Below are positions 22,979-57,685 of a DNA stretch of 64,000 nt, piece by piece (within the stretch, counting starts at the first letter, position 1; the number at the start of each line of letters is the position of its first letter). Under the pieces are notes generated by a model. It did no database searches, was not told the DNA's origin, and was given only the letters and a program-made list of their open reading frames with translations. Source of the stretch: Desulfocurvibacter africanus subsp. africanus DSM 2603 (GTDB lineage Bacteria; Desulfobacterota; Desulfovibrionia; Desulfovibrionales; Desulfovibrionaceae); NCBI RefSeq assembly GCF_000422545.1, contig NZ_AULZ01000005.1, forward strand, positions 62,001 through 126,000. The letters are read 5' to 3'. The position numbers and the translations under genes were made by a program.

Positions 22979-22983
22979 CCAAG
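22979..22983 (+). repeat. 5-bp target-site duplication (right end of Mu-like prophage)
   Basis: CCAAG directly precedes the terminal TGT of the prophage and matches CCAAG at 57,681-57,685. Five base pairs is the duplication made by Mu-type transposition. Confidence 0.85.
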
Positions 22984-23013
22984 TGTAGCGCGGCGCGGGG
23001 TTTTCGCACCTGC
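22984..23013 (+). repeat. Right terminal sequence of the Mu-like prophage
   Basis: Begins TGTAGCGCGGCGCGGGGTTT. It shares TGT, GCGGCGC, CACC and the final GC with the left end. This is the expected MuA cleavage and binding region. Confidence 0.8.
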
Positions 23014-23034
23014 GACAGTAGACTTTGACACCCC

Positions 23035-23050
23035 ACTGAACCGCTTCAGT
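23035..23050 (+). promoter_or_regulatory. Late-type operator dyad, copy C (before right-end cargo gene)
   Basis: ACTGAACCGCTTCAGT: 6-bp inverted arms and a central CCGC. It lies 69 nt before the plus-strand gene at 23119. Two related dyads precede the lysis and protease/scaffold genes, suggesting shared control by the phage's Mor/C activator. Confidence 0.55.
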
Positions 23051-23118
23051 CCACTCTCTGCCCAGCCGACTTGACGAACTTTTTGAACTCTGGGCATGGT
23101 CCGCCCTGGAGGTGCAGC

Positions 23119-23466
23119 ATGCCCAGGTGGAACTATTCGCCATCCCAGGTGTTTGAGGTCATTGAGCACGGCTCGGCTAAAGAATATGTCGTTGCCTGTG
23201 TTCGTTTCCCGAAGGAGGACCATCCTTACGACAAAGACTGCGGCCAGCTCATATTCCGTTGCCCAGTTTGCGGGGATGTTCATTACCATGGAGGCGGAGG
23301 GCCATTCCTTGGCGATGGAGATGGGAATAGAGTTCCTCACTGCATAAAGAACGCTGACTACCCCTATTCATTTACTCTCCGCGAAGTTGATGATCTGGAA
23401 CTCGCGGGAGGGTTCCCCAAGCGCATTAGGCAGCGCATCATGCCTGCCCCTTATCGCCCCAAGTAA
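23119..23466 (+). CDS. Right-end cargo protein with Cys/His zinc-like pattern
   Basis: 115 aa, start supported by GGAGGTG 5 nt upstream. CPVCGDVHYHGGG and, 14 residues later, VPHC give a C-x2-C-x4-H-x-H...H-C pattern that suggests a metal site. It lies opposite to the phage late operon at the right end, the position of mom in Mu, and has its own copy of the dyad upstream. There is no similarity to Mom that I can see. The function is unknown; accessory or moron status is inferred. Confidence 0.7.
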   Translation: MPRWNYSPSQVFEVIEHGSAKEYVVACVRFPKEDHPYDKDCGQLIFRCPVCGDVHYHGGGGPFLGDGDGNRVPHCIKNADYPYSFTLREVDDLELAGGFPKRIRQRIMPAPYRPK

Positions 23467-23487
23467 TCTTATTTCAAAGAGCCTACT

Positions 23488-23513
23488 GGCCCCGGCACAA
23501 TGCCGGGGCCTCT
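23488..23513. terminator. Bidirectional terminator between convergent genes
   Basis: A perfect 10-bp stem GGCCCCGGCA / TGCCGGGGCC with a 3-nt loop, followed by TCTT. It separates the plus-strand cargo gene from the end of the leftward tail operon. Confidence 0.75.
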
Positions 23514-23517
23514 TGAC

Positions 23518-23685
23518 CTATTCTTCAGTCAGGGATTCCGTCGCCTGGGTTTCTTGCATGGCATCGGGAATGATGCCGGGGAATATCACGATCCTTCCAC
23601 AGTCTTGACAGATCAAGTACTTGGGATAGGTCGGATGTTGAACAAGGTCCGTACTTCCGCAGGCTTTACAATAGAGTGTAGGCAC
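23518..23685 (-). CDS. Small zinc-ribbon protein at the end of the tail operon
   Basis: 55 aa with a GTG start at 23685, chosen because GGGAGG lies 9 nt upstream. It begins PTLYCKACGSTDLV and later has YLICQDCGRIVIF, a CxxC-x(n)-CxxC zinc ribbon. Mu carries the zinc-finger protein Com near the same end, but the resemblance is only of type. The rest is acidic. It follows the tail-fibre assembly gene. Confidence 0.65.
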   Translation of the reverse strand: MPTLYCKACGSTDLVQHPTYPKYLICQDCGRIVIFPGIIPDAMQETQATESLTEE

Positions 23686-23687: not shown

Positions 23688-24038
23688 CTAGGCACCTCCC
23701 AGCAGCTGTATGATTTCCAAGTCTTTCTGATCCACCAGGGTTTGCCAATCCGCCTGAATCTCAGCTGTCTTCGCCGCCTGGTTAGTCCCATCGGCTGCGA
23801 GGACGATGATCAAGCGGTCTTTAAGTGCTGCAAACTTAGACTCATACCTCGCATCAATAGCGGCAATCTGCGCATCAAGGTCCAAGCCTATCCAGGCCTC
23901 CTCAATCTCGGCCCAGGTAGGCTTTGGTCGCTCATCCTCCCAACGCAGTTCGTTATATGATTCTTGCGTGTTGGAGGTCAGAGACCCTCCATATTTAGCT
24001 GCCGGAACCAAAGCATCCAGAGCGAGTGCGACGTTCAC
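23688..24038 (-). CDS. Tail fibre assembly / XkdW-like protein
   Basis: 116 aa. RWEDERPKPTWAEIEEAWIG is the characteristic phrase of small XkdW-type proteins encoded next to tail fibres. The C-terminal part is helical. Its start overlaps the stop of the tail-fibre gene by 1 nt. It probably assists fibre assembly or host-range variation; this is inferred from position. Confidence 0.7.
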   Translation of the reverse strand: MNVALALDALVPAAKYGGSLTSNTQESYNELRWEDERPKPTWAEIEEAWIGLDLDAQIAAIDARYESKFAALKDRLIIVLAADGTNQAAKTAEIQADWQTLVDQKDLEIIQLLGGA

Positions 24039-24994
24039 TAGCTAATCCTCCATACCTTCATCTCCGAAAATACTTCCACTTCACCCATATTTACGGGCAC
24101 GCCGCCGCTGGCCGTACCAGCAGTACTGTTATATTGTTGTAACTCGAATTGCTTCTGTCCGCTGACGGACATGCGCCCGCCCAAGAAAGACCGGCACTGA
24201 TCAACGCCCCCGGCAAACTCGGACGACCCAATCAACTCGGTCACGTTGTCGGTTATGTTGCGGATGCGAATCCGAAACGAGTTACCCTCGTACGACGGTG
24301 CGCTTGCCTCGATATAATACTCGCCGGCAGGAAGCGTTACCTTATTGGAAACAAGAGACGCCCCCGCGATTCCTGCGTGCTTGATCGCGTTCAGGTCCCT
24401 GGTCCGCCAAGCCCCGGCCGTGACAGTTCCACCTCCCGTTCCACTTGGCTTTTCATCACGCACATGCAGCAGAGGGGGCACGGCCAAGCTGGAAACCGTC
24501 AGCCACGCAGACGAGCCATCGGTCACGATGGTCCGCCGTGCGTACTGCCCCAAAAGCGTGATGCTCGTTACTCCATCGATCGTATCCGCCCCGGCGCGCT
24601 GGATCGTGACCATGTTGGCTGTATTATCCACGCGCACAATTCGGAACGTCGCCCCTTTGAGTGCGTTCGCCGCCGGCAATGTCAGGACAATGTCACCAGC
24701 AGTCGCATCCACGCGCACGAGCCCGGCCTGGTCGAGGCTGAGCGTGCCTGTGGCCGTGACGGTCGCGGCCACGTTGCCGCCCATAAGCCGGCGCATGGAC
24801 TGCAGGACCTGATCAAACTTGGCTTCATCAGGAGCAATGCCAGCAGCCGTAAGAATGCTGCACAACTCTTCCAGGAGATGGTTGCCCATGTTCGCGATGA
24901 AAACCGATGCCGGGACGCCGCCGGCGGGATCGCCGTCAGTGAAGCGACCCTCCAGGGTGCCGTATTCCGGCGCGCCTTGCTGTGGCCTGCGCAT
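24038..24994 (-). CDS. Tail fibre protein
   Basis: 318 aa, starting MRRPQQGAPEYGTLEGRFTD. The middle is beta-rich with a Pectate-lyase-like or Big-like repeat (TLSLDQAGLVRVDATAGDIV), and the C-terminal part looks like a receptor-binding head (GVPVNMGEVEVFSEMKVWRI). It lies directly after the gp48-type gene, where Mu carries its fibre. Start 24994 is preceded by GGAGG and overlaps the preceding stop region; the longer frame from 25057 lies inside that gene. Confidence 0.75.
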   Translation of the reverse strand: MRRPQQGAPEYGTLEGRFTDGDPAGGVPASVFIANMGNHLLEELCSILTAAGIAPDEAKFDQVLQSMRRLMGGNVAATVTATGTLSLDQAGLVRVDATAGDIVLTLPAANALKGATFRIVRVDNTANMVTIQRAGADTIDGVTSITLLGQYARRTIVTDGSSAWLTVSSLAVPPLLHVRDEKPSGTGGGTVTAGAWRTRDLNAIKHAGIAGASLVSNKVTLPAGEYYIEASAPSYEGNSFRIRIRNITDNVTELIGSSEFAGGVDQCRSFLGGRMSVSGQKQFELQQYNSTAGTASGGVPVNMGEVEVFSEMKVWRIS

Positions 24995-24996
24995 GA

Positions 24997-25584
24997 TTAG
25001 CCTCCGTATGCGAAGATGATGATGGTGTTGGCCGGCTTGGCCTTGTTGAGCGCGCATTCCAGGCGCTCATTGCCCCATACGCGCAGCGGCTCGCCGAAGG
25101 CGCTGCGGCCGAACCGGAAGGGCGTGACGCTCACCTCCGGCGCGCTTACGCGGAACGTGAAGGCCCATTGGTCATTGGTCATGGCCTGGCCAAAACTGGC
25201 CCGGCCGAAGCGGAACGGCGTGAACTCCGTGATTTCGATTACATAGCCAAGCTCAGCCGCGACTTCTTCCAAGTAGGCAATCGACTGCCCGCCGCGCCCT
25301 GTGAGCTTGGCAAGCAGCGCTGCCCGGCGCTCCTGGAGCACCTCATAGCTGCGCGAGCATTCATCAGGCAGGCCGCAGGCGCGCTCCCAGTCAGGGAGCA
25401 TGCGCACGGTGAACTGCGGATCTGCCTCATCCAGGAGGCCCCAGGCCGCGTCTTCGACTCTGGACAGCTCAAGCCCCAGGGCGTTGCACAGCTCAAGGAG
25501 CTGCGTTTCGTCTTCCCTGGGCCAGGCCATGCCCACGGGCAGGAGCGCCAGGAGCAGGCGGCCGTAATCGGTTGTGGCGCGCAT
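24997..25584 (-). CDS. Baseplate/tail protein, YmfQ/DUF2313 family (Mu gp48-like)
   Basis: 195 aa. LLLALLPVGMAWPREDETQL near the start and LPDWERACGLPDE are hallmarks of DUF2313 proteins. WAFTFRVSAP and CALNKAKPANTII close the protein as usual. It connects baseplate wedge to fibre in Mu-like phages. It directly follows the gp47-like gene. Confidence 0.88.
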   Translation of the reverse strand: MRATTDYGRLLLALLPVGMAWPREDETQLLELCNALGLELSRVEDAAWGLLDEADPQFTVRMLPDWERACGLPDECSRSYEVLQERRAALLAKLTGRGGQSIAYLEEVAAELGYVIEITEFTPFRFGRASFGQAMTNDQWAFTFRVSAPEVSVTPFRFGRSAFGEPLRVWGNERLECALNKAKPANTIIIFAYGG

Positions 25585-26643
25585 CTACATGGCTCCGAAG
25601 GTGATGACCCCGAGGACCGGGATCTGCCCGGCGGCCGCGACGATGTTTCCCACAGGGCTGACCAGGGCGTGGTCGGATTCGCCGGCGGCAATCGAAATTG
25701 CCTCGCGGAAGTGCGAGTGCAGGATCGTCCCGCCGACTTCGGCTTCACGATTGAACAGGGCCTCCAGCTCCGACGTGACAGCGGCCTGCACGCTCGCGGT
25801 GTTCGGGGAAAGGTTGATCTCCAGGTCGACGACCAGCAGCTCGGGCGCGAACACATGGATTTCGGCCGTCACTGGCCTGCGCTCTTCGATGTAGGCGGCC
25901 ACGGCGTCGAGCGTGGCCTGGGCCGGGGTGATGGGCGTCGATTCGTCATCAACGACGTACACGGAGACGGTTCCCGCACCCAGCAGGCCACCAAAAACCC
26001 AGGCCCTGGAGACGCCTGGCACGGCCAGCGCCCAGGCCTCATAGTCGTGAGCAGCTCCGCCCGCCGGCGTCTCCTTGAGCCTGGCCAGGAGCCTGGCGCG
26101 CAGGCTGTCATCAGCCTCAATGTCGGCTCCGCCGCCCAGGCCGCCCGTGGCCACGGTGGCCTGGCTCTGCACTCCAGAGACCGGAGAGACCAGGGACAGG
26201 GCCTGGCCCGCGACGGAGTTTCCTGCCGCGCCGGCCACCTGCGCTTGAACCTGCGCCGAGGCGGTGCCGCCGGCTATTACCGCGTCGGCCGTGGTCGCGT
26301 ATTCGGCGCCGTCCGAGCGTTGCAGAAGCGTGCCGGCCGGGATGGTCGCGCCGTCCGTGCCGCTGAAGGTGACCGGACCCAGGGCCGGGCTTGCCGGCTT
26401 GCGCGCGATGCCCCACAGGGAGGCATGCCGCTCCAGGAACTCCGCCTCGGCAGTGTCTGGAATGACCTGCTTGGCCAGCCAGTCGAGATAGCCGAACAGG
26501 CCGTGTACTCCGCCTGCGTGCATGTGCGCGATGGCCGAGAGGATCGAGCGGCGCAGGCGCGCATCGGTTCCGGGCAGACGGCCCTCCAGGTCGGACTGGG
26601 CGCGCGAGATGAGCGTCTTCAAATCCGGGCGTGCAAAGGGCAT
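25585..26643 (-). CDS. Baseplate J-like protein (Mu gp47-like)
   Basis: 352 aa. MPFARPDLKTLISRAQSDLE at the start and DGTEYATT-type beta segments (LQRSDGAEYATTADAV) are typical of the Baseplate_J family. The GGLGGGADIEADDSLRARLL segment is the most conserved. It forms the baseplate wedge of the contractile tail. It sits between gp46- and gp48-type genes with no gap. Confidence 0.92.
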   Translation of the reverse strand: MPFARPDLKTLISRAQSDLEGRLPGTDARLRRSILSAIAHMHAGGVHGLFGYLDWLAKQVIPDTAEAEFLERHASLWGIARKPASPALGPVTFSGTDGATIPAGTLLQRSDGAEYATTADAVIAGGTASAQVQAQVAGAAGNSVAGQALSLVSPVSGVQSQATVATGGLGGGADIEADDSLRARLLARLKETPAGGAAHDYEAWALAVPGVSRAWVFGGLLGAGTVSVYVVDDESTPITPAQATLDAVAAYIEERRPVTAEIHVFAPELLVVDLEINLSPNTASVQAAVTSELEALFNREAEVGGTILHSHFREAISIAAGESDHALVSPVGNIVAAAGQIPVLGVITFGAM

Positions 26644-27105
26644 TTAAACGGCCTCCAGCGGGTAGTTGAAGCTCTCCTCGAAGCGGCTGCCGTCCGGCTG
26701 TCTGATCTCCACGCGCAGCCCCAGGAGACCCTTGCTCACGATCTCGGCCGTGACGCTCACGGACGTGGCCACGCCGTCCTCGACCATCCAGGCCAGGGCC
26801 TCCTCGGCATACTCGCGGGCTAGGCGCACGGTCTCGGGCAGCTGCTTGGAGCGGCGCAGGAGCCAAAGCCGGGAGCCCCAGCGGTCCCCCTCGCGCTCGG
26901 CGTAGGCATCCGCCCACCAGCCGCGCCGGTCGCCCGTGCCGTCCGGGATCTCGTCATCATCCTCAGCGCGGCGATCCGTGAGCAGGGACAGAAGCACGGC
27001 CGTGCGCAGGCCGGAATCCGAGGCCAGATCCGGCCCATTCAGGGCCAGGTCGAACATGAGCACGTCGCCGCCCTGGATCTTCTGCTGCAGAAGCGCGATA
27101 TCCAC
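26644..27105 (-). CDS. Phage GP46 family protein
   Basis: 153 aa. RGWWADAYAEREGDRWGSRLWLL is the GP46 signature, followed by the helical VRLAREYAEEALAWMVEDGV. It is the baseplate wedge component W-like protein encoded between V (gp45) and J (gp47) in Mu. Confidence 0.9.
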   Translation of the reverse strand: MDIALLQQKIQGGDVLMFDLALNGPDLASDSGLRTAVLLSLLTDRRAEDDDEIPDGTGDRRGWWADAYAEREGDRWGSRLWLLRRSKQLPETVRLAREYAEEALAWMVEDGVATSVSVTAEIVSKGLLGLRVEIRQPDGSRFEESFNYPLEAV

Positions 27106-27108
27106 AGG

Positions 27109-27681
27109 CTACTCCATGGGCGTGGTCGGGGTGCCAGTCGTTGGGGTGCCCGACGGGTGCTTATGGGCGTTGAAGATGCTGCGCATTTCAGCCATATCCC
27201 CGGCCGCGTCGGAGACGCTCTGACCGCTGACAGCCCCCGAGGCCACCAGCTGCGCGCACTCGACGATTCCGGAGAACACGGCCTTGGGCGCGGTAACAGA
27301 GACTTGCGTGCCGGCGGTTACCTCGATCTTGCGGCCGCGACGCAGGACGATGCTGTCTCCCTCATCCGAGTAGATGGCCACCTCGCCGGCCTTGAGGCCC
27401 GTAAGGCGGTAACGCCGATCGCCCACGCACACGACGATGCAGTGCGAGCGGTTGCCGCCGGCGGCCAGGGCCACGCCCTCGGCGCCGGGATGCGGGCAGC
27501 TGGTGAAGCCATAGGCCTCGAAGTGCTCGGCATCGTCCAGCAGCTCGTCGGCCAATAGCTTCACCTGCAGCAGCTGCATGGCCTGGTTGCTGTCCACCAG
27601 GCTGACCACGCACCGGGTGACCAGGAGCGAGATCCGCCGCTTGATGGGTCCGAGGACTTTGCCGAGTGCGCGCATGTCCAT
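27109..27681 (-). CDS. Baseplate assembly protein V / spike (Mu gp45-like)
   Basis: 190 aa, starting MDMRALGKVLGPIKRRISLL at 27681, where TGATG overlaps the stop of the gp44-like gene. The OB-like core is ADELLDDAEHFEAYGFTSCP. Repetitive beta segments (GRKIEVTAGTQVSVTAPKAV) and a C-terminal His-rich tip (FNAHKHPSGTPTTGTP) match the trimeric spike. A longer overlapping frame upstream is a shadow. Confidence 0.88.
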   Translation of the reverse strand: MDMRALGKVLGPIKRRISLLVTRCVVSLVDSNQAMQLLQVKLLADELLDDAEHFEAYGFTSCPHPGAEGVALAAGGNRSHCIVVCVGDRRYRLTGLKAGEVAIYSDEGDSIVLRRGRKIEVTAGTQVSVTAPKAVFSGIVECAQLVASGAVSGQSVSDAAGDMAEMRSIFNAHKHPSGTPTTGTPTTPME

Positions 27682-28724
27682 CACCAGGCCCCCATGCCCG
27701 CGCCAGGCTCGGGCAGCTCCACGCGCGCGAAGGCCTCGCGCGGCATGAGCGTAAGCTCGCTGCGCAGGCCGTCGCCATCCAGGATCAGGGCCACGCTGGT
27801 CAGCAGCCGATCCGCCTTGAGGCCCAAGTACTCGTCGCGCGCGGAAACAATGACATTGGGCGTCCACAAGCCGTCCCTGTGGGCCCAGCCGTCCACGGTG
27901 TAGACCAGACGCTGGGAGCGGCCGAAGCGCACGTTGCGCTCCCACTCGGCGCGCACCTTGGCGGCCGCGTTGTCGATCTGCTCCTCGGCCACGACAGTCA
28001 GCGGCCGATGACGCGCGATCCGGCTGTCCTTGGCCACAGCCTTGGGCTGCGCTGCGGCCTCGCCGTTCCAGGCCTCGGAGCCCGAGGACTGGCCCTTGAT
28101 GGCGATCTCGGAATACCTGTCCCGGTGTGAAAATTGGCTGTCGCAGGAGAGCACATTGACGCCGGACGAAATGGCCGAGCCGATGCGCCTTGAACTTGCG
28201 CGGGTGATGACCAGGTTGCCCTGTCCGTCGCTCACGAGAAGCACGCCTCGCACGCGCGCGGCCGCCTCCAGGACCTCGAAGACGCTGTCGCCTTCGTTGC
28301 TCTTGAGCGAGGTGAACGGCGCGCCTGCGTCGACCTCGGAGCGCACGCCGATCTTGAAAGGAGCACACAGGGACCTGGCCACGTCGGCAAGCGTGCGGCC
28401 GCGCCACTGAGTGGATGGCGCCGAGCAGTCCACCAGGTCGCCCGTGGCGTCCCGGCCGCTGACCTCGACGGAGTGATCCTTGGCGTCATAGCGGATGGCC
28501 ACATCGTCCACATAGCCCGTGATCACGGGCTGGTTGTCGATCAGGACCTTGCAGGCCGCGCCTGGATGGATGGGCCGGGGCGTGTCCTGGCCGGACCAAC
28601 GTTCGGTGACGGACAGCTCAAAGCTGCCGGCGACCTGCTCCAGGCCGCGCCGGATGGAAATCTTCTGCCAGCCGCCGTAGAGCGTGCCGTCCACGAGCAG
28701 GCGCACATCAGGCATCTCAGCCAT
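27681..28724 (-). CDS. Tail hub / baseplate protein (Mu gp44, P-like)
   Basis: 347 aa, starting MAEMPDVRLLVDGTLYGGWQ. SFELSVTERW and SVEVSGRDATGDLVDCSAP identify the gpP/late-control D-type hub. It forms the base of the tail spike. ATG 28724 overlaps the gp43-like stop by 8 nt; the upstream extension of the frame lies wholly inside that gene. Confidence 0.88.
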   Translation of the reverse strand: MAEMPDVRLLVDGTLYGGWQKISIRRGLEQVAGSFELSVTERWSGQDTPRPIHPGAACKVLIDNQPVITGYVDDVAIRYDAKDHSVEVSGRDATGDLVDCSAPSTQWRGRTLADVARSLCAPFKIGVRSEVDAGAPFTSLKSNEGDSVFEVLEAAARVRGVLLVSDGQGNLVITRASSRRIGSAISSGVNVLSCDSQFSHRDRYSEIAIKGQSSGSEAWNGEAAAQPKAVAKDSRIARHRPLTVVAEEQIDNAAAKVRAEWERNVRFGRSQRLVYTVDGWAHRDGLWTPNVIVSARDEYLGLKADRLLTSVALILDGDGLRSELTLMPREAFARVELPEPGAGMGAW

Positions 28725-29925
28725 TGGCGAGCACCTCCAGGGCCTGGCCGCCGGGCACGGCCAGCGGGTTGCGCAGCTTGTTGCGGGCCACGATCTCGCC
28801 TGCGCGCGTGGCGTCGCCATAGATCCGGTGAGCGATGACCAGCGCCGGCAGAGTCGCCGGCGGCGTCCAGGTCGACAGCTTGGGCAGCTGCATGGCCCTG
28901 TCGGTCAGGTCGCGCACGAGCGCCGCGCGCAGATCCACGAGAGCGGCATAGACCGAATCAGGGGCCAGCTGCGCTTCCTGGTCAAGCCTGTCGGCCAGTT
29001 CGTCGCGCACGGCCTGGGCATCGGCCGAGCTGGCGTAGTCCCAGCCGGAAGAGGCCCTAGAGGCTTCGATGATGGCCGTCTGGCGAACCAGGCTGTCGGA
29101 TGCGTCGCGGTTTTCCTCCAGCTTGGCGCGGGTCGGCGTCGGAATGGACTCGGGCGGCCGGCCGGAGGTGCTCTTGCCCAGGCCGTGGCCGAAGAACGGG
29201 CGGTACGTGGCCATGACCGCGTCGGGCAGGCCGCCGATCCGTCCCGCGCTGCCCACAACCGACTGGATCTGGCCGGCCAGGTTGCCGGGGCTGGTCAGCA
29301 GCGTGGCCAGCGAGGAGTTGAGCGCCCACAGGTCCGACTGCGTCTGGGTCAGCTCGGAAGGCATGCCCGGCACGGAGGACGTGGCGCCCTGGATGGCCTC
29401 GACAGCCTGGCCGAGCCAGGTCTTGGCGTCATCGCGCACCCATTCGGGTTGATCCGCGACGCTGAAGCGATCCTCGAAGCTCGCCTTGCTCGCGGCAAGC
29501 GCCTCATCGGCCCGCGAGGACACGGCCGAGGAGGTGTCCGTGGCCGCGTCGGGCCGGGGAGCCTCGCCGGCCTCGACGAAGGTGACAGAGAAGGTCGCCT
29601 TGCCGCCTTCGCGGCTGGTCTCGCGCAGGCGCGCTTCTTCCACGTGCACGCGCACCGTACCGAGATACGGGTGCACGAGCGTGCCGGCGCCGGGCTGCCC
29701 CAGGGCTTCGGCCAATCGGTCGCGCGCGCTGAAGTACTCCGGCCCGAGCACGAACAGCTCTAGGCTGTAGCGCTTGGCCTTGCGGCCCAGGTCCTGGACA
29801 TACGGCTCGTCACGCAGGGGAAATTCGCGCACGGCCAGGCGCCGGCCGAAAGGATGGTCATGGGCCTCGATCAGGAAGGGCACGCCCCGGAAGGAGCCCG
29901 GCCTCAGCTCGTCACGCCAGGCCAT
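28717..29925 (-). CDS. DNA circularisation/tail protein N (Mu gp43-like)
   Basis: 402 aa. ELRPGSFRGVPFLIEAHDHPFGRR at the start is the DNA_circ_N signature, and DLGRKAKRYSLELFVLGPEYF follows. The family name comes from a circularisation factor, but in Mu-like phages it is a tail/baseplate component. It lies between tape measure and P. Confidence 0.9.
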   Translation of the reverse strand: MAWRDELRPGSFRGVPFLIEAHDHPFGRRLAVREFPLRDEPYVQDLGRKAKRYSLELFVLGPEYFSARDRLAEALGQPGAGTLVHPYLGTVRVHVEEARLRETSREGGKATFSVTFVEAGEAPRPDAATDTSSAVSSRADEALAASKASFEDRFSVADQPEWVRDDAKTWLGQAVEAIQGATSSVPGMPSELTQTQSDLWALNSSLATLLTSPGNLAGQIQSVVGSAGRIGGLPDAVMATYRPFFGHGLGKSTSGRPPESIPTPTRAKLEENRDASDSLVRQTAIIEASRASSGWDYASSADAQAVRDELADRLDQEAQLAPDSVYAALVDLRAALVRDLTDRAMQLPKLSTWTPPATLPALVIAHRIYGDATRAGEIVARNKLRNPLAVPGGQALEVLANG

Positions 29926-29926
29926 G

Positions 29927-31834
29927 CTAGTAGGCCCCCATGTTCAGGCCGGTGTCTACGTCGAAATCCCGACCTCGGCCCGTAGCCGATCGAAGCGTCG
30001 CCGGCGCGCCTTGAATTTCCAGCACGAGCCTGCCGCCTGCATCCTGGGCAACATTGCGGGCCACGGCTCGGCCGATTTTATCAGCAAGTGCATCCTCGTC
30101 GCCACCCTTGAACAGGCCGGCAAGCTTCTCTCCGCCCCATTCGCCGGCAAGATAACCGCCAAGGCCACCAATGCCAGCGCCGATAGCAGTGCCGATGCCC
30201 GGCAGAATCGCCGTACCGATGAGCCCTCCGATCTTGGCCCCAGCCCAGCCGCCTGCCGCTCCACCGACGAAACCCGCTCCTTGCTCAACCTTCTGGCCAG
30301 TTGTCAGAGAGTCATCCATAAGCGTGGTGGCCAAGCCGACGCCCCCTGCCACCAGCCCCAGGGCGCCTCCGGCGCGGCCAAACCAGCGGCCTAGACGTGA
30401 TCCACGGCGAGCCAGAGCAGCTCCAGCGCCAGCAGCCTTTCCACTGGCACCGGGGATTGGCAGGCCAGAACCGCCAAACGAACCGGGCATGTTCACCACG
30501 TACACGGGCGTTACGCCGGAGACTTCCTCCAAGACCTTGCCAGCTGCCAGACCACCGCCCAGTCCGCCCACTTTCGACAGCAGCTTGCCGCCACCTTTGA
30601 TGACTCCAAAGCCGAGCGCAGCAGCGGCGATGCCTCCGCCCAGCAGCTCCTTTCCGCCGAGCTTGCGCTCATCAAGAAGGAACTGGATGGCCTCCTGGAT
30701 GGTGTCGTTGATGGGCCTTGAAAATTCGTCAGCCGCATCCCGCAAGGCGGCCTTGAGCCGTGCGACCTGGTCAACGGAGTTGGAAATTGCCTCAGGCAGG
30801 TCCTTGGAAATTACCCCGGTAGCGCGTTCGATCTGCCCTGTCATTGTACGAACGCCAGCCAGAGAATCACCGCCAAGCAGCATCGCAAGGCCTTTCTTGG
30901 TGTCCAGGTCGGCATCTCCGAAAGCAGCGTCAATGAAGCTGTCTCGCTGTTGGCCAGTGGCTAGCGTCTTGTACTTGGCAGCGATATCATCAAGGACCTC
31001 AAAGGCGGCCCGGCGCTCTCCATCCTTGTCGTAGAAGCTTACTCCCGTAACCGCTGCGGCTTTCTTGAGATAGTTTTGGTTGGTGAACAGCCTCAGAGTG
31101 GAGTCGGCCAGAGTGGCCAACCGCTCCGGGTTACGCTCTATGAGCGAAAGCTGCTCGATGAAGCCCAGCGTTTGGGGGAAAGAAAGGTTAGCGGCCTTCG
31201 CATTGACGCCAATTCGGGCAAAAATTCCGGCAAGATCTTCCAACTCGGCATTGCCGAGACGGCCAGCTACGGTCATCTGGTCGAGCAGGTCCTTCGAGGT
31301 TTCCAGCTTGGCCAGGTCAAAATCGAATGCCTCGCCAGCCACTGTCAGGCCAGCCGATAAGACATCCGCGCTCGCGCCGGTCACAGCCATGGCAGAGTTG
31401 ATGGCCTGGATCGTCGCAAAGGCTGCGTCCCACTCCAGGCCGGCCTGGATCAGGTTGTTGAAGCCGTCGAGCAGGCCATCAAGCGACTGACCCGTGCTCT
31501 GAGACATCAAATGCAGTTCCTTGCGCAGTGCGATGGCGGCCTGTTTGGTTGCTCCTGCCGTCTGGGTGATACGGACAAGCTTCTTGTCCAGCGCGGCCGA
31601 ATCCATTACGGCCTGGGTCGATTTGTACGCCGCACCGGCGCCGGCGATGGCGGCGGTATACCTGTTCCCAAGCCCGTCCAGCATCTTGCCAACAGACGAA
31701 ACCGAGCTGCGCAGCATGCCCATGCTGCGCTGACCTCGGTTGGCCAGGGAGTCCAGGGAGCCCGCAAAACGGGCCGCCCTGGACTCCAGGTTGCCGGCCA
31801 AGTTAAGGACGATACTGGTTTTCAGGTTGCTCAT
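29927..31834 (-). CDS. Tail tape measure protein (Mu gp42-like)
   Basis: 635 aa. The N-terminal ~330 residues match TP901-type tape measures (VAGEAFDFDLAKLETSKDLL; LGNAELEDLAGIFARIGVNA). Hydrophobic Gly-rich segments follow (GRAGGALGLVAGGVGLATTL; IGGLIGTAILPGIGTAIGAG). It sets tail length and is probably ejected during infection. Its ATG lies inside the stop of the frameshifted gp41' frame. Confidence 0.92.
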   Translation of the reverse strand: MSNLKTSIVLNLAGNLESRAARFAGSLDSLANRGQRSMGMLRSSVSSVGKMLDGLGNRYTAAIAGAGAAYKSTQAVMDSAALDKKLVRITQTAGATKQAAIALRKELHLMSQSTGQSLDGLLDGFNNLIQAGLEWDAAFATIQAINSAMAVTGASADVLSAGLTVAGEAFDFDLAKLETSKDLLDQMTVAGRLGNAELEDLAGIFARIGVNAKAANLSFPQTLGFIEQLSLIERNPERLATLADSTLRLFTNQNYLKKAAAVTGVSFYDKDGERRAAFEVLDDIAAKYKTLATGQQRDSFIDAAFGDADLDTKKGLAMLLGGDSLAGVRTMTGQIERATGVISKDLPEAISNSVDQVARLKAALRDAADEFSRPINDTIQEAIQFLLDERKLGGKELLGGGIAAAALGFGVIKGGGKLLSKVGGLGGGLAAGKVLEEVSGVTPVYVVNMPGSFGGSGLPIPGASGKAAGAGAALARRGSRLGRWFGRAGGALGLVAGGVGLATTLMDDSLTTGQKVEQGAGFVGGAAGGWAGAKIGGLIGTAILPGIGTAIGAGIGGLGGYLAGEWGGEKLAGLFKGGDEDALADKIGRAVARNVAQDAGGRLVLEIQGAPATLRSATGRGRDFDVDTGLNMGAY

Positions 31835-32350
31835 GGCGTCTTAGGTTGCAGGTGCTTCAGGCTTCGCAGGAGCCGCCTCGGGCTCAACTCGTAAATCTCG
31901 CCCCGGCTCCAGCCGGTACTACTTCCCAGCCTCAGGGTGAGCTTCTCCAGGAGCGCCGCCCACCCGATCATCTCGCCCCCTGGCCGCAGCCTCCTGGCCG
32001 GCCGTCCTCGGAGCGATCTCGGCCAACATGGCCCGCTCCAGTTCGTCGGCCTTGCGGTTGAGCAGTCCCATATCTTCAGGATGCAGCCGCTTGAGCATAA
32101 CCAGATCAATGGGGCCCTGGACGTTGCCGATGCGCACTATCTGCCGACGCAAGACGTGCACGCCCACAAGGGATGGGCTCGGCACCAACCGTGGTTCAGG
32201 GCCGTCTTTGCCCTGGAGCACAATGAGCTTTTCCGCTTCTTCCTGAGCCTCGATAATGTCGCCTGCGGTAGGCTCCCTGAGGACTACATCCAGGAGGGTG
32301 TCCGAACCGACCTTCAAGCCATGTTTAAGGGTCACTTCAACGCTGGCCAT
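31831..32350 (-). CDS. Tail assembly chaperone gp41 with -2 frameshifted extension
   Basis: The zero frame runs 32350-31919 (143 aa; MASVEVTLKHGLKVGSDTLL, the phage tail E/gp41 family). A second open frame without its own start site continues to 31831 and encodes WAALLEKLTLRLGSSTGWSR and ELSPRRLLRSLK. The overlap contains AGGGGGCGAGA (31981-31971). A P-site tRNA on GGG (31978-31976) can slip back 2 nt onto GGG (31980-31978), giving the fused product. Mu is known for -2 frameshifting in this gene pair. The long and short forms would chaperone the tape measure. Confidence 0.8.
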
Positions 32351-32353
32351 GGG

Positions 32354-32710: not shown

Positions 32711-32725
32711 CTTCCTTGCCTCGCG

Positions 32726-34201: not shown

Positions 34202-34204
34202 GAT

Positions 34205-35836: not shown

Positions 35837-35839
35837 GGC

Positions 35840-37213: not shown

Positions 37214-37247
37214 GGTGCGTGAACCTTCCTTGAAGGGGTTGTCGGGG

Positions 37248-37649: not shown

Positions 37650-37688
37650 TGTCTCGTCTCCTTGCTCTCGTTGATCGTCCAGCCCGGC

Positions 37689-50132: not shown

Positions 50133-50375
50133 CTAGCGCCCACCCCTGTCCGACGTCGGGTACCGGAACACGACGAACTCGTTCCCCGCCCCGATGAAGT
50201 GCGGCACGGCGCAAGTGCGCTCGCACCTGGGGCAGACGAGCTGCTCGCCCTTCCGGACGGTCCGCGCGCGGATCTCGGAGCCGGGCCTGGTCAGCTTGCA
50301 GGGCTTGTAGCCCGGCAGGACTACCAGGATTGGCACGCCGCCCTTGGTGTCGGTTTCGTGCTTGAAGACGCTCAT
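50133..50375 (-). CDS. Small zinc-ribbon phage protein
   Basis: 80 aa. YKPCKLTRPGSEIRART and QLVCPRCERTCAVPHF give a CxxC-x2-C pattern. It follows gam with a 4-nt overlap. The function is unknown. Confidence 0.68.
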   Translation of the reverse strand: MSVFKHETDTKGGVPILVVLPGYKPCKLTRPGSEIRARTVRKGEQLVCPRCERTCAVPHFIGAGNEFVVFRYPTSDRGGR

Positions 50376-50890
50376 GCCGCTTCCTCCTTGAGCTTCTCCT
50401 GGCTCAGCTCGATGAAGAACTCGTCGCTCGTGTCCAGCTTCACGCCGACCGTCTCCTGGCGCTCCTCGGGCCAGGTCTGCAGGGCTTCCTTGTTGACCTC
50501 TTCCTTGATCCGGATGCCGTCCTCCAGTTTCAGCTCCTTGAGGCGCTGGAGCACCAGTGCCCAGGTGAACTTGGAAAGAAGCTTGAGCTTGGTGGACTTG
50601 CGGAAGCCGAACACGCCGAAGGCGCGCTCAACGGACCTGCGCTTCTTGAACAGATCGGCCTTGTTGTAGGCCCCGAACGTGGCCAGAGCCGTCTCCAGCT
50701 CCTTCTTGCGCGCGGCCAGGGGTGCGGCCGCCTTCTTGGCCTCGGCCTTGGCCACGTCCAGGGCTTCGTTCATGGCTGCCTCGATCTCGCCCAGCTTGCG
50801 GCCGATGCGACACAGCTCTTCCAGCACGGCATCGGCCTGGGCCAGATCCTCGATTGTCATCACTTGCGGTTTGCTCCGTGCCACGGTCAT
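50372..50890 (-). CDS. gam: Host-nuclease inhibitor Gam (Mu Gam-like)
   Basis: 172 aa. IEAAMNEALDVAKAEAKKAA, then YNKADLFKKRRSVERAFGVF and GFRKSTKLKLLSKFTW are Gam signatures. Gam binds linear double-stranded ends and blocks RecBCD-type nucleases; it resembles Ku. Its position early in the operon fits. Confidence 0.93.
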   Translation of the reverse strand: MTVARSKPQVMTIEDLAQADAVLEELCRIGRKLGEIEAAMNEALDVAKAEAKKAAAPLAARKKELETALATFGAYNKADLFKKRRSVERAFGVFGFRKSTKLKLLSKFTWALVLQRLKELKLEDGIRIKEEVNKEALQTWPEERQETVGVKLDTSDEFFIELSQEKLKEEAA

Positions 50891-52156: not shown

Positions 52157-52894
52157 CTAGCGCCTCCTGGCGGGCGGACGGCCGGAGAAGAAGGGCTCGT
52201 CGCCCCACTGGGCCAGGCCCATGATCTCCAGGCCCTCGATGGCCGCGCGCTCGCGCGCCCGCTCCAGATTCACGCAGATCCGGCGCACGCGGCCCCCTCC
52301 GGCCTCGTGGATCTTCGCCAGCAGGTCCTGGCCGATCTCAACGCCTGGGGCGTAAAGCCGGGCCAGATGGCGCGTGTCCTCAAGGCTCGCGGGCTGGGCC
52401 GGAACCCAATCCAGGACCCGGTTGTCCACGCGCTCCCACCTGGAGAGCAGCTCCGGAAGCATTTCCTCGCCGATGAGCACGATGGACGCTCCGCTCTTGT
52501 CGTGGATCTCGCGCACCACCTCGATCATGCCCTTGCGGGCCAAATGGTCCGCTTCGTCCACGAGCACCGGCAGCTTGGTACGGCACAGGCAATCGATGAT
52601 CTGCTCGATCATGTCCGCCACCGTGCGCTTGGCCGGTACGCCGACCTGGCGCAGGAGCGCTGTGCAGAGCTTCTTGCGCGTCCAGCTCTCGCCGACCTCC
52701 ACGTACACGGCCCGGTTGACCACCACGGCCCTGGTCGCGGCCACGGTCTTGCCGTAGCCGCTGTGGCCGTAGAAGCAGCCCATGCCTGGCAGATGCGGCG
52801 GGCGGTTCATGACCCGCTTGACCAGTTCGTCCAGCAGCGTCACGTTCCGCAGTGGGGCCACGTCCCCGTTGACAGAGGGTTGTGCCTGGGTCAT
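52157..52894 (-). CDS. MuB-like AAA ATPase, transposition target selector
   Basis: 245 aa. Walker A GHSGYGKT, Walker B LPVLVDEAD and sensor SIVLIGEEML are seen. The C-terminal VRRICVNLERARERA is the DNA-contact region of this clade (ExeA-like). In Mu, MuB picks target DNA, prevents self-insertion and activates MuA. It lies 33 nt after the transposase stop. Confidence 0.9.
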   Translation of the reverse strand: MTQAQPSVNGDVAPLRNVTLLDELVKRVMNRPPHLPGMGCFYGHSGYGKTVAATRAVVVNRAVYVEVGESWTRKKLCTALLRQVGVPAKRTVADMIEQIIDCLCRTKLPVLVDEADHLARKGMIEVVREIHDKSGASIVLIGEEMLPELLSRWERVDNRVLDWVPAQPASLEDTRHLARLYAPGVEIGQDLLAKIHEAGGGRVRRICVNLERARERAAIEGLEIMGLAQWGDEPFFSGRPPARRR

Positions 52895-52927: not shown

Positions 52928-55015
52928 CTACGCTTCAAACGCCGCGAGGCCGAATTCCCGATACATGTCCCGCTGGCTCAGGTACTCGGCAGTCTTGCTG
53001 TAGCCATCCAGCCAGCGGGCATCCGCTTCCGAAATCTGCTCCCCACGCTCCAGCCGCTGCTCCAGGCTCAAGGCCCTCAGGTAGCGCGCCTTCTTGATGT
53101 CCATGGGCTTCGGCTCCGGCCTGACCTGCTCGGCCGGCTCGGCCTTGGCCTGCAGGGCCTGCTCGAACTCGCGCACAAGCTCGGCGTGCTTGGCCTGCTG
53201 GGCCGGGGTAAGCTCGACGGCCACGGGCGCGGCCTCCAGCATGGGCGCGGCTCCGGCCAGGATCTTGTCCTCCTTGCGCCGGATGCGCTTGAGTTGCTGC
53301 CGGGCGCGCTCCTCGCGGGCCTGCTCGATGACGGGCTTGGGGAAGTAGGGCGTGGCGTTGGCGTCCAGGCCGGCCGTGCAGATGAGCCGGCCTTCCAGGT
53401 CGCGCACCCACACCATCTGGACATTGTGGATGTCGTAGCCGACCTGCACCTCTCTCTCGTGGTAGAGGTCCAGCTCACGGGCGAAATAGGAGTTGTTGGC
53501 GACCTGGACGACGCAGCGGCGCACGGTGCGCACAACGTAGGGCCGGAACAGGTCGGCGGTCTCCTCGGGAGTTGGCCGCAGGACCTCAGCTCCCTGGGAC
53601 AGGCGCAGGTTCCAAAGCTCGTTGGGGCTCATGTGCCGAGCCCGGCCCGTCTCCTGGTCGGTGATCTTGGGCAGGCTGGAGTGCGGGCGGTTGTTGTAGG
53701 CGTCGATGCACCCCTGAGCCCAGTCCACGAACTGCTGCCAGCTCATGAGCAGCTTGGACGATCCCTGCTCCTTGAGGTCCTTCTTGATGCGGTCGTCGCG
53801 CTCCTTGCGGGACTGCTGGTCCATGTCCATGCCGCAGTAGGCCGGCAGCATGCGTGCGGAGCGGACCCAGCAGGAGCCCTGGAAGCGTTCGATGACGCCG
53901 CGCGCCTGGCTGCCGTAGGGCAGCGAGTGCTGCACCGAGGTGCCCAGGCGGGAGAGCATGCCCAGGGCCGGGCCTGTGAGCACCTCGTTCTTGAAGCCGC
54001 AGCCGTTGTCCACGTAGAAGATGGCCGGGATTCCGCCGATCTCCACGGCGTTGCGCACGGCGTCGGCCACGAGCCAGGACGATTCGTGCAGCTCGGCGCT
54101 CCAGCCCACGCAGCGCCTGGTCACAAGATCCAGCACGGAGATGATCTCCGGCCGCACGGGCTGGCCGTGGATGGGATGCTGTACATTCAGGTCGGCCTTG
54201 TGGCCGTCCGCCGTGTAGACGTCCCCCAGCTCCAGGTCGTCGAGGCCGCGACGCTTGTAGGCCATGAACTTCTTGAGTTCGCGCGAGCCCAGGCGACCCT
54301 TGTTCTTGACCCGCACGCCCATGCGCGCCAGCTCGCGCTCGACAGTGCGCAGCGCGGGCAAGGTCACATCGTCCGGCAGGAGCCCAGGTGTCTGAAGCTC
54401 TTCATAGCACTGCCTGATGCTTGGCTGGCCGCGCCGCTGGTACAGCTTCATGAAATAGAGCAGCCAGGCCGGATCGTTCCGCCTGGCCTCGGGAGCCTTG
54501 GGCGCAAGGCCGTCCGGGCCCTGCAGCTTGAGGATGCGCCGCCAGTTGCGCAGGGTCGCGGCGGACAATGCGCGGGATGAGCCCGAGCGGGCATTGGCTT
54601 TGAGCACAAGGGCCTGCAGGTGCTCGACCAGGCCGCCGCACGCGGCCGCTTCGGCGATCTTGCGCTCGGCCTCCAGCATGCCCACGGCGGCACCCAGGCG
54701 GGATACGGCGTCGAGGATGGCCAGTCGCGCGTCGCGGATCTCGCGCTGCCAGGTCTTGAGGCTGACGGCCGGGGCCGGAATGGCCTCCGGGGCAAGGATC
54801 ACGGCCGGAGCCGAGCGAGCCAGGAGCGCCTCGGCAAGCTTGTCACGGGTTTCGATGGGCAGGGCGGAGGTGATCCACTCGCTTCCGCCGCCACGGCCGG
54901 AGCGCGGGCGGGACTGCCAGCCTTCAGCCTTAGCTTGACGCTGGATCGTCCGCTCGCTTGTGCCGAGCAGGTCCGCAAGCTCCTTCGTGCTGTATACGTC
55001 TTTCAGCGTAGTCAT
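52928..55015 (-). CDS. MuA-type DDE transposase
   Basis: 695 aa. The N-terminal DNA-binding region starts TLKDVYSTKELADLLGTSER. The catalytic core has D270 (YTADGHKADL), D336 (FYVDNGCGFKNE) and E376 (RGVIERFQGSCW). The C-terminal part (GYDIHNVQMVWVRDLEGRLI) is the Mu-transpos_C beta barrel and ends with a coiled MuB-interaction-like tail. The catalytic triad is intact. It directs both integration and replication by transposition. Confidence 0.95.
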   Translation of the reverse strand: MTTLKDVYSTKELADLLGTSERTIQRQAKAEGWQSRPRSGRGGGSEWITSALPIETRDKLAEALLARSAPAVILAPEAIPAPAVSLKTWQREIRDARLAILDAVSRLGAAVGMLEAERKIAEAAACGGLVEHLQALVLKANARSGSSRALSAATLRNWRRILKLQGPDGLAPKAPEARRNDPAWLLYFMKLYQRRGQPSIRQCYEELQTPGLLPDDVTLPALRTVERELARMGVRVKNKGRLGSRELKKFMAYKRRGLDDLELGDVYTADGHKADLNVQHPIHGQPVRPEIISVLDLVTRRCVGWSAELHESSWLVADAVRNAVEIGGIPAIFYVDNGCGFKNEVLTGPALGMLSRLGTSVQHSLPYGSQARGVIERFQGSCWVRSARMLPAYCGMDMDQQSRKERDDRIKKDLKEQGSSKLLMSWQQFVDWAQGCIDAYNNRPHSSLPKITDQETGRARHMSPNELWNLRLSQGAEVLRPTPEETADLFRPYVVRTVRRCVVQVANNSYFARELDLYHEREVQVGYDIHNVQMVWVRDLEGRLICTAGLDANATPYFPKPVIEQAREERARQQLKRIRRKEDKILAGAAPMLEAAPVAVELTPAQQAKHAELVREFEQALQAKAEPAEQVRPEPKPMDIKKARYLRALSLEQRLERGEQISEADARWLDGYSKTAEYLSQRDMYREFGLAAFEA

Positions 55016-55342: not shown

Positions 55343-55585
55343 CTACGCCGCCTCCTGTCCGTTGTTCTCCAGGTCCTCAGGCAGGGCCAGGAACTGCTTG
55401 GGACAGCCCTTGTCCCTCAAGGCACGCAGGACTCGGCGGCTGTTCTTGCGGCCGAATATCGTGTGGCTAACCAGAGAGTGGTGCACTCCCAGTTCGGCGG
55501 CCACGTCGTTGACCTCCAGGCCGATGTCAGCCATCCATTCTTTGATCCTGTACGGCTTGCGCCGCTTGCCTGAGCCCTGCTTCAT
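55343..55585 (-). CDS. Ner-like small DNA-binding protein
   Basis: 80 aa. YRIKEWMADIGLEVNDVAAE and LGVHHSLVSHTIFGRKNSRR form a helix-turn-helix. It lies where Mu has ner, between the early operator and the transposase. It probably represses early transcription during lytic growth. Confidence 0.75.
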   Translation of the reverse strand: MKQGSGKRRKPYRIKEWMADIGLEVNDVAAELGVHHSLVSHTIFGRKNSRRVLRALRDKGCPKQFLALPEDLENNGQEAA

Positions 55586-56013
55586 ATTTCTTCCTCAAGC
55601 TTCTTTTTGCGACGTTGCAGCCGCTTGATCTCGGCTTCGATCTCGGCCCGCTCCAGGAGCGCCGCCTGTCGTTCATCTATGATCGTGAGCCCAAGCGGCG
55701 CGGCCAGAGCCTGGATGGCCCCGTGATCGCCCACGACGCGGCAGAACACCACCAGAGCGCGCAGCCCAGGCACATGCTCTCGGTCAGCTGGATTGAGCCA
55801 CTTCTCAAGGGTCGCCGGAGCCATTCGTAAGGCATTCCCGGCCTGCAACCTGATGCCGTGCTCGGCGGCCACCTCGGACATGCGGTCGCAGATCTGCTCA
55901 CGGGACAAAGCACTTTCCTTGGCGGCCCTGTTCATGGCCGCCTTGAGCGCCTGGAGTACGTCCAGTCCAGGCCCGAAGAGGGAAAGTTGCCTACCGTCCG
56001 CTGACTTGCGCAT
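55582..56013 (-). CDS. First early gene: putative phage regulator
   Basis: 143 aa. REQICDRMSEVAAEHGIRLQ and MAPATLEKWLNPAD look like a helix-turn-helix, VPGLRALVVFCRVVGDHGAI follows, and the C-terminus is a Lys/Glu coiled coil (RLQRRKKKLEEE). It is first in the leftward operon, divergent from the repressor. It is probably a regulator of lysis-lysogeny choice. Confidence 0.72.
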   Translation of the reverse strand: MRKSADGRQLSLFGPGLDVLQALKAAMNRAAKESALSREQICDRMSEVAAEHGIRLQAGNALRMAPATLEKWLNPADREHVPGLRALVVFCRVVGDHGAIQALAAPLGLTIIDERQAALLERAEIEAEIKRLQRRKKKLEEEI

Positions 56014-56227
56014 TCGCTATCCGGTCAATTTGTGACCTCGGACATTGACCCCCCGAAGGAGTGCCGAGTAAGGTCTAACCGTGACGGTCGTTTTGTGACC
56101 ATCTTTCTGGGCACTTTATGACCCATAATTTTGGGAGTCAACATGAAAAAGTATGTCGCAGTTCATTTTTATGAGCTAGCGACCCACTTTTATGGATTTG
56201 TGTGGAATTATATGGAGATAGCAACAG
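56014..56227. promoter_or_regulatory. Lysogeny control region with repeated operators
   Basis: A 214-bp gap between the divergent early operon and repressor. TTTGTGACC occurs at 56029 and 56092, and TTTATGACC at 56115. Related GACCC/TTTTATG sequences lie at 56180-56195. The region is AT-richer than the prophage average and ends with TATATGGAGATAGC before the repressor ATG. The repeats are the likely binding sites of the repressor and Ner-like protein. Confidence 0.7.
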
Positions 56228-56974
56228 ATGGCGACCAACGAAGGGCTGTCGGAGTTTGTGTCGGAGTTTGACCCTAGAAGTGCGACACAAAATTTTGGGG
56301 AAAGACTCAAAAAAGAACGCGAGAAGCTGGGCTTGTCCCAGCGTGACATGGCCCAAAAAGTTGGTGTTGGTCTATCCTCAATCCAGAATTATGAAAGCGG
56401 GCTTCTGCCTAAGGGAGACCACCTGGTAAAACTGGCAGTTGCCCTTTCTTGCTCTGTAGACTGGCTCCTCTTCGGAACCAAGCAGGGCGCCGGTGAGCAC
56501 TCCGAAGCTTCAAGGATGGGTGTTGGTTTTCCTAGCCAAGTAATCCAACCCTGCGACCCGGAGTTGGTCATGGTACCAAAGGTCGAGGCCAGGCTCTCTG
56601 CCGGGACAGGCAGCCTGGAGACCAGCGCGGAAATCACAGGGCGATTCGCCTTCCGCTCCAAGTGGATTCGAGCCCGAGGCAATCCTCAAGAGATGGTTTT
56701 GATGGACATCTACGGGGATTCAATGGAGCCGGAGATCAAGGCAGGTGACACGGCCCTGATTGACCAGAGCCAGACCGACGTGCATGTGGGTAGAATCTAT
56801 GCGATAGGCATTGATAGTGAGGTTTTCATCAAGTACGTGGACCGAATCCCCGGCAAGTATATTCTTCGATCTGCAAACAAAAACTACGAACCTATCCCCG
56901 TTGATCTTAACGAAGAGAGCTGCAACGTCCGCATTATCGGCCGGGTTGTGTGGTGGTGCAGGGAGGCCCGCTGA
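56228..56974 (+). CDS. S24/LexA-type phage repressor
   Basis: 248 aa. An XRE helix-turn-helix (GERLKKEREKLGLSQRDMAQ; VGLSSIQNYESG) covers residues ~22-75. The C-terminal peptidase S24 domain has YGDSMEP (catalytic Ser) and EVFIKYVDRI (catalytic Lys). ARLSAGTGS may be the cleavage-region loop. Such repressors are inactivated after DNA damage, so the prophage may be SOS-inducible, unlike Mu itself. Only this gene and the adjacent cargo are rightward at this end. Confidence 0.92.
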   Translation: MATNEGLSEFVSEFDPRSATQNFGERLKKEREKLGLSQRDMAQKVGVGLSSIQNYESGLLPKGDHLVKLAVALSCSVDWLLFGTKQGAGEHSEASRMGVGFPSQVIQPCDPELVMVPKVEARLSAGTGSLETSAEITGRFAFRSKWIRARGNPQEMVLMDIYGDSMEPEIKAGDTALIDQSQTDVHVGRIYAIGIDSEVFIKYVDRIPGKYILRSANKNYEPIPVDLNEESCNVRIIGRVVWWCREAR

Positions 56975-57537
56975 TGAAGGTTGCTAAATCGTTATGTATC
57001 GCACTAGCATTCTCTTTTATATTTTCTGCAAATGGATTTGCGGAGAAAGTTGCATTTTCAATCACTGGTAAAGAAGATTTTAGTTTTCCAGGCAGGAGTA
57101 GAAAGTCATTTACGCTTGTTCCTGATAGAGATGATCTGACGTTTGACATGTTGCTGGAGGCGGTCAAATCTGCTGCCGTTAATCTCCAGCAAAATGAAAG
57201 ATGCGACGTGGTTGAGGTCTGGATAACATGCGCCAAGTCTGGAGACACGTTTTCTGGATTCAATGTTTTGGCCCTGGCCAGATATTGTCCTGATGGACGC
57301 GGACACTCTGGGAGCGATAAGTGGACTTGGGAAGTATTTGTAACCAAAAATGCTACGCCTGATAAAATCAAGTTTATCAATGCACTTGAAACGCGTTATC
57401 CAAAATTCAGGGATATGTATTCAAAAGAGTATAACGCCGCCCGCACACAGATCGCCGCTGACCTTGGGTTGCCGCCTGATTTCAGGCCGGACATTGAACT
57501 AGAGGAAGTTGTCAGCCGCCGTAGCGGGGGTGTCTAA
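56974..57537 (+). CDS. Secreted cargo protein beside the repressor
   Basis: 187 aa, ATG overlapping the repressor TGA, with GGGAGG before it. A signal peptide (SLCIALAFSFIFSANGFA) is followed by KVAFSITGKEDFSFPGRSRK, weakly like DUF4875 proteins. Codon use is clearly AT-richer than phage neighbours. Coupling to the repressor predicts expression in the lysogen, so it is probably a lysogenic-conversion gene. The function is unknown. Confidence 0.72.
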   Translation: MKVAKSLCIALAFSFIFSANGFAEKVAFSITGKEDFSFPGRSRKSFTLVPDRDDLTFDMLLEAVKSAAVNLQQNERCDVVEVWITCAKSGDTFSGFNVLALARYCPDGRGHSGSDKWTWEVFVTKNATPDKIKFINALETRYPKFRDMYSKEYNAARTQIAADLGLPPDFRPDIELEEVVSRRSGGV

Positions 57538-57541
57538 AACA

Positions 57542-57573
57542 ACCGCCGCGCGGATTATTTTTCTGGCGGCGGT
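57542..57573 (+). terminator. Terminator of the repressor operon
   Basis: The stem ACCGCCG / CGGCGGT with a loop that contains ATTATTTTTCT follows the secreted protein's stop by a few bases, just inside the prophage left end. Confidence 0.5.
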
Positions 57574-57650
57574 GTTCAAATCAGCCTTTTCCCCTCGGAT
57601 GCCCACGAGTCCCGATATATCCCGGCATTTCCCCGAATATCCCGGATAGT

Positions 57651-57680
57651 GCCGGTGTTAGAATCTAGCGCCGCAGCACA
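57651..57680 (-). repeat. Left terminal sequence of the Mu-like prophage
   Basis: Read on the minus strand it begins TGTGCTGCGGCGCTAGATTC. It aligns to the right end over 30 bp with 20 matches. The related CCGATATATCCCGG and CCGAATATCCCGG inside it (57610-57645) may be further transposase sites. Confidence 0.8.
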
Positions 57681-57685
57681 CCAAG
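57681..57685 (+). repeat. 5-bp target-site duplication (left end)
   Basis: CCAAG immediately after the terminal ACA of the prophage, equal to 22979-22983. Confidence 0.85.

Follow-up and report, generated by a model that had tools for sequence, protein, structure and literature searches.

Evidence for a complete Mu-like prophage with base-exact ends, nested in the remnant of a tRNA-Glu island of Desulfocurvibacter africanus

The 64,000-nucleotide stretch of contig NZ_AULZ01000005.1 of Desulfocurvibacter africanus subsp. africanus DSM 2603 analyzed here (positions 62,001–126,000; hereafter the window) almost certainly carries a complete, structurally intact Mu-like prophage that is 34,697 bp long, was inserted by its DDE transposase with a 5-bp target duplication and is nested in the remnant of an older element at a tRNA-Glu gene. 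The prophage belongs to an expected, known type of element and is well delimited.

Read directly from the letters, the element occupies 22984–57680, with the duplications excluded. On one side, TGTAGCGCGGCGC starts at 22984, right after CCAAG at 22979–22983; on the other, GCGCCGCAGCACA stops at 57680, right before CCAAG at 57681–57685 (no strand is assigned to either copy). In a strain of the species without the prophage, a single CCAAG is predicted to join the host flanks ...CGCTGACCAAG and CGCACGCATC.... Phage Mu likewise produces a 5-bp target duplication. The 30-bp termini are identical at 20 of 30 positions in an ungapped comparison, and no other TG...CA pair in the two zones scanned combined an exact 5-bp duplication with at least 16 matches. 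The prophage lies in reverse: its genes are read from right to left, which makes 57680 the left (repressor-side) end and places attL at the right end in the window and attR at the left. attR consists of the phage right terminus TGTAGCGCGGCGCG with the putative transposase sites R1 and R2 (22984–23039, plus strand), while attL consists of the terminus TGTGCTGCGGCGCTAG with the putative site L1 at 57647–57666 (57647–57680, minus strand), as read and as located by a site matrix. A first-pass annotation of this DNA had claimed exact ends, an exact CCAAG duplication and 20 of 30 terminal matches without gaps. Its ends are right to the base, the duplication was read at both sides and the match count was reproduced; the letters and positions of its span, 22979–57685, are also correct, except that this span includes the duplications.

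Support for these ends comes from a prophage on contig C11 of G211, a genome of the same family and another genus. There, the top-ranking pair in a scan for target-site duplications that was given no motif was attL TGTACCCC... and attR TGTAGCGCGGCATT..., with the duplication CTGAT, a length of 35,078 bp and 19 of 30 terminal matches. A score of 19 lies within the chance range, and the right terminus TGTAGCGCGGC is the same as that of the window; since this terminus recurs in G211 though the scan did not know it, the pair counts as support. TG...CA ends with a 5-bp duplication are therefore present in the window, with G211 as a second case. The outcome that had been named beforehand as refuting, a related genome with the ends placed differently relative to the phage genes or lacking the duplication, is absent in G211, where ends of the same kind occupy corresponding places with respect to the phage genes and are flanked by a 5-bp duplication. 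In addition, the right end of the sequenced phage MP29 is identical to that of the window over the first 14 bp, TGTAGCGCGGCGCG.

Internal sites of the type TTTT-RACACC provide further evidence. The cores of L1, R1 and R2 begin 22, 22 and 44 bp into the element, as in G211; beyond a long spacer come those of L2 and L3, at 105 and 147 in the window compared with 116 and 160 in G211. Putative R1 (about 22998–23017, plus strand) was located by a consensus scan, and putative R2 (23020–23039, plus strand), L3 (57522–57541) and L2 (57564–57583; both within 57522–57583, minus strand) by the consensus scan and a matrix trained solely on five sites of G211. Applied to both strands of the 64-kb window, this matrix ranked L1 first, L3 third, L2 tenth and R2 fourteenth; the other 10 of the 14 printed matches lie elsewhere, and R1 is not among them. 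The consensus scan ranked R1 first, and L2 and L3 joint next along with others. Five of the six expected sites (putative L1, L2, L3, R1 and R2) were found as sequence. In the D3112 group, the accessible part of PMC4378225 places L1–L3 at 10, 93 and 124 bp and R1–R3 at 4, 46 and 93 bp, with R1 inverted; the order of the left sites counts as support because it fits this arrangement.

Several observations weigh against the ends and the duplication as read here. Although random TGT-anchored pairs reach 20 matches with a frequency of 0.000255, the same best-pair search, applied to pairs of zones drawn at random from the window, reached 20 in 3 of 396 cases, so that termini and duplication alone are suggestive (P about 0.008). 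Apparently chance pairs score 19–20 in the larger zones of other genomes (G044, G015). Genome G188 contains two attL and two attR with four different, unmatched flanks, a mismatch that likely reflects rearrangement and gives no support to the duplication rule; its left ends lie at 219637 and 3702876 and its right ends at 243792 and 285769 (L080, L081, L159, L184), with one Mu-type transposase domain. Among the three closest relatives only G211 was convincing, the duplication scan having found no ends in G219. The same scan gave no convincing pair in eight more distant prophages (best scores 16–20, chance-like); two further distant relatives either lacked the right-end stretch or had just 2,260 bp of it. 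No mate was found for the attR of G197, and G020 yielded no candidate. The duplication is accordingly verified in two prophages only, as the other relatives gave no convincing pair; no genome of the same genus is among the relatives listed. Moreover, R3 was not found by the consensus and matrix scans, and R1 and R2 point in the same direction here, whereas R1 runs opposite to R2 and R3 in the D3112 group. We nevertheless accept the ends of the element because the G211 prophage, MP29 and the internal sites decide in their favor.

Copies of the right end also occur elsewhere in the genome, at three places without other phage genes nearby: C7:171347 (L002), C10:119237 (L003) and C8:47807 (L004). 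The C7 and C10 relics comprise about 75–83 bp from the terminus and include R1–R2, the C7 copy lying some 100 bp from a contig end; the C8 relic lacks the terminus and retains a relative of the open reading frame (ORF) at 23119. Such recurrences without other phage genes are what one would expect if the 22984 terminus were part of a separate repeated element, an insertion-sequence (IS) end or small repeat beside the phage, with the true end elsewhere. We consider this very improbable: MP29 and the G211 prophage, the latter with its own duplication, have this terminus as their right end, the R1–R2 spacing is the same in G211, and no IS21-family transposase exceeds the cut-off in the genome, where three matches fall below it. 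An origin of the left terminus from IS21 or another insertion sequence, raised by the recurrences of about 75 bp, was rejected on the evidence of MP29 and G211. A second attL was not found in the genome. Across the 247 genomes of the family, a right-end model had 13 matches, spread over 9 genomes; matches that start at the terminus outside this genome are in G188 (twice), G211, G197 and G020. Judged by eye, hairpin-plus-T sequences resembling terminators precede the C7 and C10 relics by some 40–50 bp. Separately, a dispersed repeat, TTAGAGCATTTTGCTTTTGAAAATGCTCTGCAAGCCATGCG..., is present on three contigs of the genome (at the end of L002, at about 2000–2130 of L003 and at 1–130 of L004).

The transposase of the prophage is a MuA-type DDE protein of 695 amino acids (aa) encoded at 52928–55015 on the minus strand. 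Domain scans identified the Mu C-terminal domain (PF09299, 8.1e-17), HTH_Tnp_Mu_1 (3e-08) and rve (3.1e-06, under its cut-off). The catalytic residues D270, D336 and E376 align with D269, D336 and E392 of MuA and are invariant in 21 of 21 aligned transposases, and structure 4FCY aligns across the first two; the triad, which the first-pass annotation had called intact, is thus confirmed by position and against MuA. The protein is 37.6% identical over 98% to transposases of D3112-type phages (MP42, MP29 and their kin), 22% identical to MuA and 49% identical to that of the G211 prophage (45.5% by tblastn). A protein search detected no second transposase of the same type in the genome; a domain search detected another Mu-type frame of 727 aa on C5 (G000:C5:151376-151561), which probably marks another transposable prophage. 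No close relatives by transposase were found in genome_contigs or viral_contigs. The attR pattern matched three contigs in genome_contigs and none in viral_contigs, and the attR region had no blastn match among phages and plasmids.

Scans against PHROGs, Pfam and NCBIfam assigned the remaining genes and bore out the earlier claim that all expected modules are present. The early genes lie at the right side of the window. A CI-like lysogeny repressor with an HTH and a Peptidase S24 domain (3.2e-22) is encoded at 56228–56974 on the plus strand, leftmost in phage orientation and divergent from the early-late operon on the minus strand. Between it and attL, a DUF4875 protein with a signal-peptide-like N terminus (by eye) is encoded at 56950–57537 (plus strand), overlapping the repressor gene; it is a candidate for lysogenic conversion or superinfection exclusion, and DUF4875 is not mentioned by name in the literature searched. 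The minus-strand operon comprises a weakly matching Ner-like repressor (55343–55585), the transposase, an adjoining MuB-like AAA ATPase (52157–52894; phrog_296, 2.6e-56; AAA_22, TniB), a Gam-like end protection protein (50372–50890), GemA (47081–47581; PF06252), a Mor-type late transcription activator (46444–46863), a holin and an endolysin with a Peptidase_M15_3 domain (44931–45826), head and packaging genes (36173–44104: major head protein, protease, minor head protein, portal, large and small terminase; PHROGs) and tail and neck-side late genes (24038–36136: fiber, baseplate wedge, gpV at 27109–27690, hubs, tape measure, tube, sheath and neck; PHROGs and NCBIfam). Next to attR, a Cys/His-rich ORF of 115 aa (23119–23466, plus strand) matches no family; its degenerate relative is the one at the C8 relic. 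Could the prophage be cryptic, with correct ends but no induction, replication or particles? Several early genes and the attR-proximal ORF lack a recognized homolog, a single late activator was found and R3 is missing, which leaves this a possible but rather unlikely state, given that the reading frames for core transposition, lysis, head and tail functions are open and match their families over most of their length and that both termini appear undamaged.

From the observed ends, duplication, site sequences, genes and triad, we infer how an active prophage might be induced, how its sites might be bound and what the repeat array in its left-end spacer (see below) might do. In the lysogen, the S24-type repressor would silence the early operon, and the DUF4875 protein is probably made from the same transcript. 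S24 repressors are inactivated through RecA-assisted self-cleavage, making DNA damage the likely trigger; the repressor would then probably be lost by such cleavage. The transposase and the MuB-like ATPase would bind L1–L3 and R1–R2, pair the TG...CA ends and replicate the phage by transposition. The Mor-type activator would subsequently switch on the lysis, head and contractile-tail genes, followed by packaging. By analogy with Mu, where the corresponding site is HU-bound, the array between L1 and L2 may serve as a bend site.

This array consists of CCGGGATAT-type units phased at 10 bp in the L1–L2 spacer (57590–57646, minus strand; lag-10 identity). CCGGGATAT-like units recur every 10 bp in the spacers of the window, G211 and G188, with lag-10 identities of 0.58, 0.55 and 0.69, and 0 of 5000 simple shuffles were as high for each. 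As the array had been seen before it was tested and the G188 attL was found through it, whereas the G211 end was not, the cleaner evidence is G211, together with the fact that the twelve 65-base stretches scoring highest across the 64 kb are all within the array. Mu has weaker phased GGGA repeats in its L1–L2 spacer (lag-10 identity 0.44, P 0.0048), SfMu reaches 0.49 (P 0.0004) and D108 is lower (0.38, P 0.036), these P values being uncorrected for 14 sequences. The lag-10 test found no phased array in D3112, MP29 and DMS3, nor in RcapMu (0.31, P 0.17), whose record starts at the annotated attL1. Values for SuMu, PY223, KS10 and martha say little because the record end taken may not be attL; that of KS10 is 0.44 (P 0.0046), with a best lag of 9. 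MuM16-2 and B3 were left out of the comparison. When the upstream regions were scored in ten more distant relatives, G015 alone was clear (0.65), the rest scoring 0.45–0.53. The array as a general marker of Mu-like left ends is ruled against by D3112, MP29, DMS3 and RcapMu. Titles and opening lines of abstracts among the open-access matches listed do not describe such an array; PMC5357137, which is among them, contains both "phased" and "bend".

A left-end model built from three sequences matched 47 places in 37 of the 247 family genomes, of which 43 were considered after leaving out the three training places and the second G188 copy. For six of the 43, a Mu-type transposase domain lies inward, on the right strand and no more than 6 kb away (35 such domains exist in the 37 genomes), a proximity far above chance expectation; among matches that reach the terminus this holds for 4 of 5, and two of these four are near-identical copies in a single genome (G093). 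The remaining 37 lack such a domain, and several are multi-copy or at contig ends. Twenty of the 43 loci were fetched: two had a strong, correctly placed transposase and one a weak match on the other strand. Ten long ORFs from nine or ten loci, compared with Pfam, gave one Mu-type transposase, one portal, one Mutator-family transposase, one weak ABC match and six without any match. CCGGGAC/T arrays also lie elsewhere in related genomes (L186–L205), partly multi-copy and most without a recognized Mu-type transposase nearby.

The left-end repeat of the prophage may help the DNA bend. In Mu, the 74-bp L1–L2 spacer is the HU site, according to the accessible part of PMC3820752. More tentatively, diverse transposable phages might share a helically phased bend, in which four to six CCGGGATAT-type units, one per 10 bp, fill the L1–L2 spacer, provide the site at which HU or a phage protein docks and bends the DNA, and set left-end geometry during transpososome assembly; the HU site of Mu would be a worn version, and D3112-type phages and RcapMu would have lost the array or never had it. 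We regard this generalization as doubtful, and it is weakened by RcapMu, which has no array. If the spacer array is a bend site common to several groups, comparing natural spacers that have it with those that lack it would put the architectural role of HU in Mu transposition to the test. Two features deserve follow-up: the phased spacer and the solo right ends.

The prophage is nested in what is left of an older element that had integrated at a tRNA-Glu (TTC) gene (22769–22846, plus strand; tRNA scan). A 70-bp direct repeat (family D5) flanks the prophage plus about 1.65 kb: copy 1 (22796–22865, plus strand) is the 3' part of the tRNA gene, and copy 2 (59211–59280, plus strand), a partial tRNA-Glu, is 89% identical to it. 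At least 8 of 38 other genomes (G001, G005, G009, G015, G018, G027, G034 and G036) have a full tRNA-Glu with a downstream partial 3' copy, counted when it lay no more than 41 kb away on the same strand of that contig, and because of this recurrence the site looks like an integration hotspot. No integrase was recognized in the scanned ORFs of the island remnant of about 1.65 kb. Local gene order showed no empty island site, since none of the 29 relative loci examined at the downstream helicase gene, with some 1.5 kb of flank apiece, contained a tRNA.

Judged from its sequence, the element is a mosaic transposable phage, with a D3112-type transposition module, a Mu-type contractile tail and an S24-type repressor, because its transposition half is D3112-like while its tail is Mu-like. 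It offers a base-exact reference for such phages, with an att-site anatomy that can be compared across phages with widely differing transposases. The D3112-like phages of Pseudomonas aeruginosa (Casadabanvirus; MP29, D3112) share with it the gene order repressor (reverse), ner-like gene, regulators, A and B, as well as an L1 site of the TTTTGACAC type. They are siphoviruses, as stated in the accessible part of PMC5977238, in contrast to the contractile tail genes in the window, where a sheath (phrog_165, 6.9e-211) and baseplate genes take the place of the non-contractile tail of Casadabanvirus. The sheath is 47–52% identical to those of Mu, SfMu and Bordetella phages. The Muvirus members Mu, SfMu and D108 (sheath 47–48% identical) have Gam, GemA and Mor-type genes in common with the window, which differs in its 22% transposase identity to MuA, its S24-type repressor and its transposase-site sequences. 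Prophages of Desulfovibrio piger, likened here by description only, bear a sheath and Mu-like proteins according to the accessible part of PMC12724379. The G211 prophage shares the right terminus, site spacing, phased array and 5-bp duplication, together with homologs of the portal, large terminase, major head protein and MuB-like protein, but gave no tblastn match at 1e-4 to the tail sheath or fiber of the window.

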